Shown here one piece after another: positions 27,454 to 31,035 of a DNA stretch of 36,098 nucleotides. Positions within the stretch are counted from its first letter, which is position 1. Each line of letters starts with the position of its first letter. The notes below the pieces were generated by a model. It searched no databases. It was not told the origin of the DNA and saw only the letters and a list, made by a program, of their open reading frames with translations. Made by a program: the position numbers and the translations under genes. This DNA is from Caldilineae bacterium (GTDB lineage: Bacteria; Chloroflexota; Anaerolineae; DUEN01): NCBI GenBank assembly GCA_011176545.1, contig DUEN01000026.1, positions 1 to 36,098 of the forward strand, read 5' to 3'.

Positions 27454-28515
27454 TCAATTATTCGTAAGATCGCCCGCGATGGGCTCCAGCCGCGGCCCCC
27501 GTGGGGTATCCAGCACCCGCCACCCCAGAGCGAGGATCTGGTCCCGCAGCGCGTCGGCCGTGCACCAGTCCTTACGGGCACGCGCCTCCTCCCGCTTCCT
27601 AACCAGATCTTGAATCTCCGGCGGCGGCTTCCGCTCTTGGGTTGCCTCTGCGCTGGCGGCGACGGTCCTCCACACCTCAGGAGGAAGCCCCTCACCAGGT
27701 CTCGGCATCCGAAACGGTCCCAGCTCGGCCAGGGCAAACGTTTGACCTCTCGTGAACCGTCGCGTCCCCCCTCCATGGATCAGCACCACGCCATGGCGGC
27801 CTAATACCTCGCAAGTCTCCGCCGCGAAATCCACCGCCAAAGCCGTGTGCTCATCGATCCCGATCATCCGCACATCAGAGGGCAACATCTCCATCAACCG
27901 GCTGAAGCGCGCCTGTCCCATGAAACATCGGCTGGTATCCAGCTCCTCACCGCCCTCCGCGTTGTCCCAATGGGGGATGAACGTCAACCTCAATCCATAA
28001 GGGCTGAAGAAATCCAATCCCTCCTGCCAGTGAAGCTCCTCTCCTACCTTGTAAATCTCGTATACCGGTAGAGCATGCGTACTGACGGCGATCGAGGCCG
28101 CGCTGGCCAGGACGATGGCGGCCCCCAGCCTGTGACGGGCGAGCAGCATATGCCATGCCAGGCTTCCTCGAAGCTGACGCACCGCGTATGTAGGGCTGCC
28201 AGGCCCAAGGAAGATCACGTTCGCCTGCAGAAGCGGCTCCAGGATCCGGGGATCATCCGGGCTGAAGGGCGTCCCCCGCTTGCGGGCGGGGATGACAGTA
28301 ACCTGCGGGTGGTAGTTCTGCAGATGATGGCGCACGAAGTCGGCCACGCGCTCGGCTACCCGGGCCGAGTTAGGCTGAAATCCGGCAGGCGTCTCCAGGA
28401 TGGCCACCCGGATGGGCTCATACAATCGTTGGAACAGCCAATCCCAGGCACGACGCCCGCTGGGGGAGGTCTCTCCAGAGCCGAAGAGGATGATGAAACC
28501 AGGATGTCGGACCAT
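27454..28515 (-). CDS. S51 peptidase/cyanophycinase-like protein with CysRS-type C-terminal tail
   Basis: This 353-residue protein is cytoplasmic. Residues 1-290 look like the class-I glutamine-amidotransferase-like fold of peptidase S51: IILFGSGETSPSG, then FLGPGSPTYAVRQLRG. AIVLASAASIAVS puts Ser138 where S51 enzymes have the nucleophile, although the usual GxSAGA is altered to LASAAS. IGIDEHTALAVD and GGTRRFTRGQTF follow. About residues 297-345 (PPPEIQDLVRKREEARARKD; TADALRDQILALGW; DTPRGPR) match the end of cysteinyl-tRNA synthetase. Its substrate is unknown. It lies 9 nt from the epimerase gene in one operon. Confidence 0.75.
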   Translation of the reverse strand: MVRHPGFIILFGSGETSPSGRRAWDWLFQRLYEPIRVAILETPAGFQPNSARVAERVADFVRHHLQNYHPQVTVIPARKRGTPFSPDDPRILEPLLQANVIFLGPGSPTYAVRQLRGSLAWHMLLARHRLGAAIVLASAASIAVSTHALPVYEIYKVGEELHWQEGLDFFSPYGLRLTFIPHWDNAEGGEELDTSRCFMGQARFSRLMEMLPSDVRMIGIDEHTALAVDFAAETCEVLGRHGVVLIHGGGTRRFTRGQTFALAELGPFRMPRPGEGLPPEVWRTVAASAEATQERKPPPEIQDLVRKREEARARKDWCTADALRDQILALGWRVLDTPRGPRLEPIAGDLTNN

Positions 28516-28524
28516 GGCAAGCCT

Positions 28525-29445
28525 CTACCGGACACGATGGAAGAGATCACGCAGCGCGGCCTCCGCCTCCGGGAAGCGGAACGTGAATCCAGCCTCTAAC
28601 AGACGCCTGGGCACGGCGCGCTGTCCCTCCAACAGGATCGTCGCCATCTCGCCGAAGAGCAGGCGCAAGACCACGGCCGGCGTGGGCAACCAGGCGGGTC
28701 GTCTCAATACCCGCCCCAGGACTTGACTGAACGCCGCGTTGGTCAGCGGATGGGGAGCCGTCAGATTAAAAGGTCCCCTCGCCTCCTCATGTGCCATGAG
28801 GAAACGGATGGCAGCGACCTCGTCGGTGATGTGAATCCAGGGGAACCATTGACGGCCACCTCCCAACGAGCCTCCCGCGAACAACTTGAAGGGCAACGAC
28901 AGACGCGGCAGGGCGCCTCCCTCCATACTCAGCACCACCCCGGTGCGGATCACGACCCGACGCACCCCCATCGCCTCGACCGGCGCCGTAGAGGCCTCCC
29001 ACTCAACGCATACCTGCGCCAGGAAGTCATCTCCCGGCGGCGTATCCTCAGTGACCACCTCGTCGCCTCGCGGCCCGTAATAGCCGACGGCCGAGGCCTG
29101 CACCACGACGCGCGGCTTCTGCTTGGCGTCCTCAACGGCCTGAACGACCGCGCGGCCCGCGTTGATCCGGCTCTCATGGATACGCCGTTTGCGCTCGGCC
29201 GTCCAGCGGCCCGCGCCGATGTTCTCGCCAGCCAGGTTCACGATGGCATCCGCGCCATCGGCCAGATGTCCCCAACCGCTGGGCGTGCGCGCATCCCATC
29301 TGACCATCTTCACGTTGGACGGCAGGTTCGTCGTCCGCCTTGGAGCGCGGCTGAGCACGACCACCTCATGTCCTTCACCAACCAGGTATACCGCCAATAC
29401 TCGTCCGATCAGCCCGGTCCCGCCTGTAATGAGCACTCGCATCAT
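28525..29445 (-). CDS. TIGR01777-family NAD-dependent epimerase/dehydratase (SDR, DUF1731)
   Basis: This 306-residue extended SDR protein has [20 protein letters not shown] as its Rossmann start and [19 protein letters not shown] as its family signature. [14 protein letters not shown] has the catalytic Tyr region, [14 protein letters not shown] follows, and [13 protein letters not shown] comes after it. [13 protein letters not shown] leads to the C-terminal DUF1731 ([19 protein letters not shown]). The substrate of this family is not established. It heads a two-gene operon with the S51-like gene. Two ATG codons are in tandem; either may be used. Confidence 0.9.
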
Positions 29446-29511: not shown

Positions 29512-29540
29512 TTGACACAACCTCTTTTCCATGCTATAAT
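29512..29540 (+). promoter_or_regulatory. Perfect-consensus sigma-70 promoter
   Basis: TTGACA (29512-29517), a 17-nt spacer and TATAAT (29535-29540), an exact match to both hexamers. It predicts a transcript start near 29547 and reads into a short RNA and nfeD. Confidence 0.85.
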
Positions 29541-29679: not shown

Positions 29680-31035
29680 ATGCAACGTTCGCATCGTGGG
29701 CAATCACATATCCGGCCGCGATCTCGCTGGGTTCAATACCTTGTGCTTCTTATTCTCTCATTCTCCCTCCTCACCTCTGCCCTGGCTGAGTCTCCAGACC
29801 TCATTATGGTTCTGGAGGTGCGCGGCGTCATCGATCCCGTCGTGGCCCAATACGTCGAGCGGGGAATCCGCGCGGCCCACGATGAAAACGCCAGCTTAGT
29901 GGTCATCCAATTGGATACGCCTGGCGGCCTCGATACCGCTATGCGCAAAATCGTGCAAGCCATCCTGAACTCCGACATTCCCATAGTTGTCTCCGTCGCC
30001 CCCTCTGGTGCACGGGCGGCCTCCGCTGGCGTCTTCATCACCATGGCCGCGCACGTCGCGGCTATGGCGCCGGGCACGAACATTGGCGCTGCTCATCCCG
30101 TTGACATGAGCCAGGGAGAGATGCCGGCTACGATGGAGGACAAGGTGACCAACGACGCCGTAGCCTATGTGCGGGCCATCGCCGAGCAGCGCGGCCGCAA
30201 CGCCGATTGGGCAGAGCAGGCCGTCCGCCAGAGCGCGTCCCTGACGGCACAGGCGGCGCGAGAGCAAGATGTGATCGATCTCATGGCCGAGGATTTGCCC
30301 GCGTTGCTGAAGATGCTGGACGGGTATCCCGTCTCTCTCAACGGAGAGGAAGTTGTCCTGCAACTTGAATCCCCCACGATCGAGCCGTATGCCATGACCT
30401 GGTTCGAGAGGGCTGCCCACGGTCTCATCGATCCCAACATCGCCTACATCCTGCTCACGTTGGGCACTCTGGCGCTGATCGCCGAGTTCTACAATCCCGG
30501 CGCTATCCTCCCCGGCGTGAGCGGGGTGATCGCCCTTGTGCTGGCCTTCATCGCTCTGGGCAGCCTGCCCGTCAATTGGGGCGGCGTCGTACTCATCATT
30601 ATCGCGCTGGCCTTCTTCCTCGCCGACATCAAGGTGCCTGGGTTCGCGCTCAGCGTGGCCGGCGTGATCAGCTTTATCCTGGGATCCCTCTTCCTCTTCA
30701 GCCCGTTCACGCCCACGCCCCCCACCATGCCTCGGCTCTCGGTCAGCCCCTGGTTGCTGGTGACCATGACGGCCATCATCGTTGGGTTCTTCACTATCGC
30801 GGTGACTGCTGGGCTGCGGGCCCAGCGCCGCGCGTCGCTGACGGGCACTCACATGTTAGTAGGCCAAACCGGTATCGTCCTCTCCGACCTGAACCCACGC
30901 GGCGTGGTCCAGGTACAGAGTGAGACATGGACCGCCATCACAGCCGAGGGACCGATACCTGCCGGTGAAACGATAAAGGTCATCGGAGTGGATGGCCTGC
31001 ACGTGCTAGTGCGCCCTCTACAACAGAAAGATTAG
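29680..31035 (+). CDS. nfeD: NfeD-family membrane serine protease (long form)
   Basis: This 451-residue protein has an N-terminal signal/anchor (QYLVLLILSFSLLTSALAES). The ClpP-like domain (about 40-230) has IQLDTPGGLDTAMRKIV, Ser115 in SGARAASAGVFI and Lys155 in EDKVTNDAVAYV as the Ser/Lys dyad. Four or five hydrophobic segments follow (about 250-390). The last part (HMLVGQTGIVLSDLNPRGVV) is the OB-fold NfeD domain. Long NfeD proteins typically pair with a stomatin-like protein and are thought to cleave it. The slipin gene starts 11 nt downstream, as expected. AGGAG precedes the ATG. Confidence 0.94.
   Translation: MQRSHRGQSHIRPRSRWVQYLVLLILSFSLLTSALAESPDLIMVLEVRGVIDPVVAQYVERGIRAAHDENASLVVIQLDTPGGLDTAMRKIVQAILNSDIPIVVSVAPSGARAASAGVFITMAAHVAAMAPGTNIGAAHPVDMSQGEMPATMEDKVTNDAVAYVRAIAEQRGRNADWAEQAVRQSASLTAQAAREQDVIDLMAEDLPALLKMLDGYPVSLNGEEVVLQLESPTIEPYAMTWFERAAHGLIDPNIAYILLTLGTLALIAEFYNPGAILPGVSGVIALVLAFIALGSLPVNWGGVVLIIIALAFFLADIKVPGFALSVAGVISFILGSLFLFSPFTPTPPTMPRLSVSPWLLVTMTAIIVGFFTIAVTAGLRAQRRASLTGTHMLVGQTGIVLSDLNPRGVVQVQSETWTAITAEGPIPAGETIKVIGVDGLHVLVRPLQQKD

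Follow-up and report, generated by a model that had tools for sequence, protein, structure and literature searches.

What is the role of a protein which features a cyanophycinase-like body at one end and a piece of cysteinyl-tRNA synthetase (CysRS) at the other? The question is raised by a gene of a Caldilineae bacterium (Chloroflexota), found in a window, i.e. the whole stretch of DNA analyzed, of 36,098 nucleotides (contig DUEN01000026.1, assembly GCA_011176545.1). The gene spans positions 27454-28515 of the minus strand, as reported in the first-pass annotation, starts with ATG at 28515, stops at 27454, and encodes 353 residues plus the stop. Residues 1-270 (27706-28515, minus strand) form an alpha/beta body of the S51 (cyanophycinase/peptidase E-like) type, identified by the family profile and by superposition of a structural model. 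Residues 271-297 (27625-27705, minus strand) are a linker, in which the secondary structure of the model includes a helix at 279-292. Residues 298-346 (27478-27624, minus strand) fold into two helices and a beta hairpin, and correspond to CysS_C, the anticodon-binding domain of CysRS, by match to PF23493 and superposition on 1u0b. The AlphaFold2 model, built from a 63-sequence alignment, has a mean pLDDT of 94.5 and a pTM of 0.89. In the window protein, an S51 fold is followed by a genuine anticodon-binding domain of CysRS.

The CysRS identity of the tail, originally read from motifs in the last 50 or so residues, is supported by sequence and structure. Pfam CysS_C (PF23493) matches residues 298-337 (E 4.4e-7, 30.3 bits vs the curated 23), and the tail alone scores 34.9 bits. 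The match to the NCBIfam cysS profile (TIGR00435) is limited to the C-terminal end of the latter (413-463 of 466). CysRS has a synthetase catalytic domain; in contrast, the class I catalytic domain tRNA-synt_1e is not among the Pfam matches up to E 10 on the window protein. Searched by phmmer against solved structures, the tail residues match the CysRS structures 3tqo (7e-6) and 1li5 (0.0024). Profile searching, set beforehand as a possible refutation of the relationship, does link the tail to CysRS: with a family profile made of 63 relatives the matches improve to 4e-12 (3tqo) and 1.1e-11 (1li5, E. coli CysRS). Residues 294-346 of the model superpose on residues 401-461 of E. coli CysRS as solved in complex with tRNACys (1u0b, chain B; rmsd 1.7, 52 aligned residues, 31% identity), with a Z of 7.8, a score which is middling alone on the aligner's own scale, and stands together with the sequence evidence. 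A second member with a longer linker (model pLDDT 84.5) fits the same chain with Z 8.2 and rmsd 2.4 over 56 residues (45% identity). Sequence, fold and four residues contacting G34 are shared with the CysS_C domain (E. coli CysRS 403-461). The idea that the tail was copied recently from the complete CysRS of the same genome was rejected, since the two tails are only 43% identical over 42 residues, and tails group by protein type in a 48-residue tree (23 label changes vs a shuffled mean of 73). Residues after the DT.G motif are mostly Pro and Leu in the fusions, mostly Gln/Thr and Trp in CysRS.

The fusion is not confined to one genome. Near-full-length, tail-bearing matches, counted by hand as those which start no later than residue 6 and reach at least residue 340, were found in 47 of 199 genomes of the class; an automatic tally of 102 class genomes includes matches to CysRS tails alone. 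The body family is present in 106/400 genomes of the phylum (profile search, E 1e-20), six of these being weak matches. An orthologue is found in Oscillochloris sp. ZM17-4 (L042:4001-5041). Proteins of the family come in three builds. The window type is made by body and tail (about 350 aa), separated by a linker of only about 30 residues. In 17 proteins roughly 100 mostly helical residues are interposed between body and tail. In a third type (L064, L065, L067, L070, L071, L153) the body has no tail. The middle part of the 17 longer relatives was considered as a CysRS DALR domain and rejected, the probability in profile comparison being 0.2-0.3%; Pfam DALR_2 scores below cut-off on one long-build member (E 0.013, 16.4 bits vs 22), and the middle part in the model of one such member has no CysRS match. 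The gene is absent in the nearest relatives surveyed, G058 (the sole genome of the same genus), G023 and G086 (same family), and hence is dispensable.

The long build is found also outside the phylum, in large replicon records from Nonomuraea and from three Streptomycetaceae, two of which are Streptomyces. Actinobacterial relatives with a CysS_C-like tail lie at L207:4992-6353 and L209:4983-6329, both annotated only as hypothetical proteins, and at L208:4938-6191, all on the plus strand. CysS_C scores 24.6 bits, above the cut-off, in WTX01040.1, and 11.6 bits, below it, in WP_207565538.1. Presence in the class, the phylum and actinobacterial relatives indicates that the fusion is old and extends beyond one phylum. 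The notion that the gene reflects a chance resemblance, a contig error or a fusion in a single genome counts as refuted by this spread, as by the Pfam, profile and superposition data, and no evidence supporting it was found. On a Paraburkholderia plasmid, too, a stretch without any listed gene (L210:2501-2662, plus strand) resembles the tail, with 46% identity across 54 residues.

The S51 body is less readily recognized than the tail by curated profiles. Pfam Peptidase_S51 scores 11.7 bits on the window protein, below the cut-off of 23.9, and the cyanophycinase profile TIGR02069 17 bits, below the curated 126.6. Among six S51-body relatives, four score 14.0-21.6 bits with Peptidase_S51, and two (L157, L144) have no match. 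Against solved structures, the cyanophycinase-like protein 6nqc is matched at 4e-5 by single-sequence phmmer, and at 4.6e-36 by the profile of 63 relatives. Residues 1-265 of the model superpose on 6nqc with Z 26.1 (rmsd 2.5, 236 aligned residues), and the body fits 7uqw and the pseudo-CphB 7uqv (both Z 23.9), cyanophycinase 3en0 (Z 23.8) and peptidase E 1fy2 (Z 18.8). The fold is therefore shared with S51 peptidases (3en0, 7uqv, 6nqc, 1fy2; Z 18.8-26.1; MccG was left out of the comparison), as are the Ser-His-Glu positions. Unlike the window protein, the matched S51 chains carry no CysRS tail.

The triad of peptidase E is Ser120, His157, Glu192, as given in PMC9239234. The corresponding residues of the window protein, all encoded on the minus strand, are Ser138 (28102-28104), at the nucleophile position in LASAAS, aligned with GCSAGA of 6nqc; His182 (27970-27972), in a PHWD/NN motif; and Glu222 (27850-27852), in GIDEHTAL. 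Ser138 and His182 are conserved in 63/63 sequences of alignment A1, Glu222 in 61/63, and in 46/46 of A2. A1 was built from 71 candidate family sequences, minus 9 truncated, near-duplicate or extended ones (L020, L033, L045, L046, L047, L056, L057, L076, L078). Ser, His and Glu match the triad positions of 6nqc, and an S51 catalytic arrangement appears to be present, as judged by superposition of the model and by triad residues assigned by alignment. Asp as third triad residue, which in the same source defines clade V (MccG-type) S51 proteins, is not found in the window protein.

The elbow letters LASAAS had been taken in the first-pass annotation as a sign against peptidase-type chemistry. The letters are as described, and Ser138 is there the invariant S51 nucleophile position; the conclusion drawn from them is not supported. 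S51 peptidases feature a G-x-S-A-G elbow, the window protein A-S-A-A, and Gly is found at position 140 in 1/46 class A members. By alignment, the change is a trait of the whole subfamily, in which only the small residues flanking Ser differ. Catalytic residues look complete, so the elbow is no argument against hydrolysis. The departure from GxSAGx might also denote a pseudoenzyme, i.e. a body which hydrolyses nothing, and acts as a small-molecule sensor on tRNACys use via the tail; PMC9239234 reports proteins of S51 clade II which are devoid of peptidase activity. This reading is improbable, given that Ser, His and Glu are retained in a family of 63 aligned sequences reaching down to about 25% identity, and that the pocket motifs ETPAGF, GPGSPTY, LPVYEIYKVG are near-invariant. 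With the triad retained, and the elbow change subfamily-wide, the fusion would denote a tRNA-linked hydrolase, rather than loss of a hydrolase.

What the tail may bind is suggested by the residues which in CysRS read the anticodon. In E. coli CysRS, G34 of the GCA anticodon is hydrogen-bonded by Arg427 and Asp436 and stacked upon by Trp432, and a water network at G34 involves Asp436 and Arg423, according to the structural description in PMC12684709. Equivalent residues of the window protein, established by sequence and profile alignments to solved CysRS, are Arg308 (27592-27594; Arg423, water-mediated contact), Arg312 (27580-27582; Arg427, hydrogen bond), Trp317 (27565-27567; Trp432, stacking) and Asp321 (27553-27555; Asp436, hydrogen bond), all on the minus strand. 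Both arginines are found in 46/46 class A fusions and 86/86 S51 tails; Asp321 in 46/46 and in 85/86, with one gap; at position 317, W is found in 43 and F in 3 of the 46 fusions, and the 86 tails have W69/F12/Y5. The 86 distinct S51-fusion tails were gathered from all collected ORFs by searching with a tail profile at E-values up to 0.01, a procedure which favours conserved tails and would overlook degenerate ones. For comparison, 52 tails of CysRS proteins from this phylum all feature Arg423, Arg427 and Asp436, with Trp432 as W35/F14/Y3. Positions 313, 319, 322, 326, 328, 333, 335 and 339 are among those varying freely in the 46 class A fusions. Conservation of the contact residues may partly be structural. 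The first-pass annotation had proposed a tRNA- or RNA-linked role in place of simple peptide cleavage. Of this proposal the link to tRNA is the favoured part, given that the fusion keeps the residues reading G34 as tightly as CysRS does; the support sought in the elbow falls.

CysS_C domains are joined in Chloroflexota also to a different partner, a glycosyltransferase of family 2 (GT2). The GT2 family associated with the CysRS tail is found in 117/400 genomes of the phylum. In short tail-GT2 proteins (L080, L121-L123, L178-L180, L183, L184) the tail is N-terminal to GT2; many other proteins retain a full CysRS. An example of the latter is the 807 aa CysRS-tail-GT2 protein encoded at L114:425-2845 (minus strand), in which tRNA-synt_1e, CysS_C and Glycos_transf_2 all score above cut-off. 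Complete CysRS and GT2, a combination widespread in Chloroflexota, are similarly joined at L167-L177, L181, L182, L185, L186. Twenty GT2 places examined comprise 15 CysRS-GT2 (14 flagged by motif, and L175 by eye) and 5 tail-GT2 genes. Forty places with unusual frame lengths, taken from a longer list, correspond to 30 plain CysRS, 5 S51 fusions, 3 tail-GT2, 1 CysRS-GT2 and 1 CysRS fragment. S51 body, tail and GT2 are found in one frame of 618 residues at L157:2237-4090 (minus strand), where CysS_C scores 17.0, below cut-off; this triple fusion is one more link of S51 enzymes to CysRS. In genome G259, in addition to CysRS-GT2, CysS_C matches another frame of 506 aa, probably an ordinary CysRS. 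At L131 and L137 a GT2 gene is convergent with a separate CysRS gene, and close to its end.

Since the tail is found also on the unrelated GT2 enzyme, and there on the N-terminal side, it behaves as a mobile module. It may then have been repurposed for binding RNA or proteins in general (ribosome, mRNA hairpin, self-association) without specificity for tRNACys, the body being an ordinary S51 exopeptidase. Replacement of Ile/Val, typical of CysRS, by a residue which is mostly Trp at position 332 of the fusions fits this alternative. We regard it as unlikely on the whole, as the G34-reading side chains are constant as in CysRS, and docking of proteins would need no such constancy.

S51 genes are also found next to CysRS-GT2 genes. 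An S51 gene lies just downstream, on the same strand, at 5/15 CysRS-GT2 loci (L169, L173, L174, L181, L182), and at 4 of 20 further GT2 3' flanks (L190, L191, L196, L198); the 20 flanks, 18 of which have frames of 700 aa or more, were classed by the GT2 match alone. The resulting adjacency, 9/35, is a raw count, and the nine loci fall in three genome families (f62, f83, f88). At L181 and L182 there is a 4-nt overlap between the S51 gene and the one before it; at L176 an S51 gene lies nearby on the opposite strand. Where the letters were read, the S51 genes beside CysRS-GT2 show the GxSAGA elbow in its canonical form, and fall in a subfamily distinct from that of the window protein. Two unlike S51 subfamilies are thus tied to CysRS, one through fusion to the tail, the other through its gene order alongside CysRS-GT2.

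S51 hydrolases, CysRS (or its tail) and the dedicated GT2 might all be components of a single, so far undescribed pathway in Chloroflexota and their relatives, making and cleaving a cysteine-sugar or tRNACys-linked conjugate. Such a pathway would parallel mycothiol metabolism, with its glycosyltransferase, CysRS-derived ligase and amidase; the tail would keep the enzymes on tRNACys, and the window protein would act as hydrolase in a branch devoid of GT2. We hold this scheme to be a long shot. Over 400 genomes, S51 body and GT2 families occur together in 18, S51 only in 82, GT2 only in 99, neither in 201 (six genomes with weak S51 matches being counted as S51-negative). The association is negative (odds ratio 0.45, p 0.005, kinship ignored), and argues against a simple pathway common to both. 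The genome of the window has general GT2 relatives, and no member of the GT2 family at E 1e-25. A CysRS paralog of mycothiol synthesis, MshC, is described in PMC2922099 and PMC9437257 as tRNA-independent. Like the window tail, it is a CysRS-derived part serving outside translation; MshC retains the catalytic part, in contrast to the window protein, which retains only the tRNA-reading part.

Taken together, the ties of S51 proteins to CysRS, by fusion and by gene order, and the conserved G34-reading residues make a tRNACys-linked hydrolase the best reading. From these data we infer RNA binding, specificity for tRNACys and hydrolase activity of the window protein. The latter is probably a two-domain serine hydrolase of S51 fold, with Ser138-His182-Glu222 as putative triad, and an old CysRS-derived tail most likely binding the anticodon stem-loop of tRNACys. 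The C-terminal domain would have been taken long ago from a cysteinyl-tRNA synthetase, would contact the anticodon stem-loop through G34, as in CysRS, and would tether or gate the putative hydrolase at the anticodon loop. Points against this explanation are the existence of tail-less body members, the missing gene in the three nearest relatives, and the lack, in the loci scanned, of tRNA-Cys genes and of CysRS genes beside the fusions.

The anticodon and the 3' CCA end of tRNA are far apart, at opposite ends of the molecule. As the tail would read the anticodon end, the most likely substrate would be presented close to the anticodon loop, or would be a free small amide or ester hydrolysed under a tRNACys switch, rather than an aminoacyl ester on the same tRNA, an argument derived from the known geometry of tRNA. 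A trans-acting hydrolase of aminoacyl- or peptidyl-tRNACys, involved in quality control at the 3' end, would combine a triad of the serine esterase type with a tRNACys-reading domain; in addition, the S51 enzyme MccG can act on aminoacyl-nucleotides, as mentioned in PMC9239234. The distance between anticodon and CCA, compared to the short linker, makes this alternative very improbable, as the CCA could be reached only through dimerization or by way of a second tRNA.

As a rule, the appended domains of synthetases are not found apart from these enzymes. A precedent by analogy for an orphan synthetase anticodon domain steering an enzyme to tRNA may be seen in DALRD3-METTL2, in which, as summarized in PMC7237682, a synthetase-type anticodon-binding domain, devoid of the catalytic portion, guides a different enzyme to selected tRNAs. 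The two systems are alike in principle, and no homology is claimed: DALRD3 features an ArgRS-type DALR domain, is a separate subunit, serves a methyltransferase, and is found in animals. In the literature searched, which covers few subscription journals and preprints, no paper deals with cyanophycinase and cysteinyl-tRNA synthetase together, so that within these limits no description of the fusion was found. Cyanophycinase and aminoacyl-tRNA synthetase co-occur in two papers, apparently a review on short-peptide biosynthesis and the MccG study (PMC9239234). Among papers on CysRS paralogs, on CysRS and glycosyltransferases and on CysRS in Chloroflexota, no title or abstract describes these fusions, related papers being PMC2922099, PMC9437257, PMC8762117, PMC9976931. 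The fusion, old and widespread, points to a possible enzyme so far undescribed, which would act on cysteine tRNA or by way of it. If so, it would be a tRNA-addressed hydrolase, whose tRNACys-reading surface has been kept through at least two phyla, and the tie to CysRS-GT2 gene fusions provides a concrete set of proteins for finding the chemistry.

Genes flanking the fusion were also inspected. No tRNA genes are present in the window, and tRNA-Cys was found in none of 56 loci scanned. A defence role was considered and rejected, as three proteins had no PADLOC match. The upstream neighbour (28525-29445, minus strand), 9 bases away, encodes an epimerase-like oxidoreductase of the TIGR01777 family (350 bits vs 207), and is possibly co-transcribed with the window gene; a TIGR01777 gene adjoins the orthologue in L053 and L059, and is about 2.7 kb off in L060. 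The downstream neighbour is nagA (TIGR00221, 263 bits vs 226). Neither gene explains the function. Conserved neighbourhoods were discarded as a functional clue, since neighbours differ between families, the TIGR01777 gene is the only one to recur around the window's kind, and the sets found elsewhere are lineage-bound. Further upstream, the plus strand matches the sigma-70 promoter consensus perfectly (12/12) at 29512-29540, where a TG is placed ahead of the second hexamer; this sequence precedes a weakly SppA-like gene at 29680-31035.
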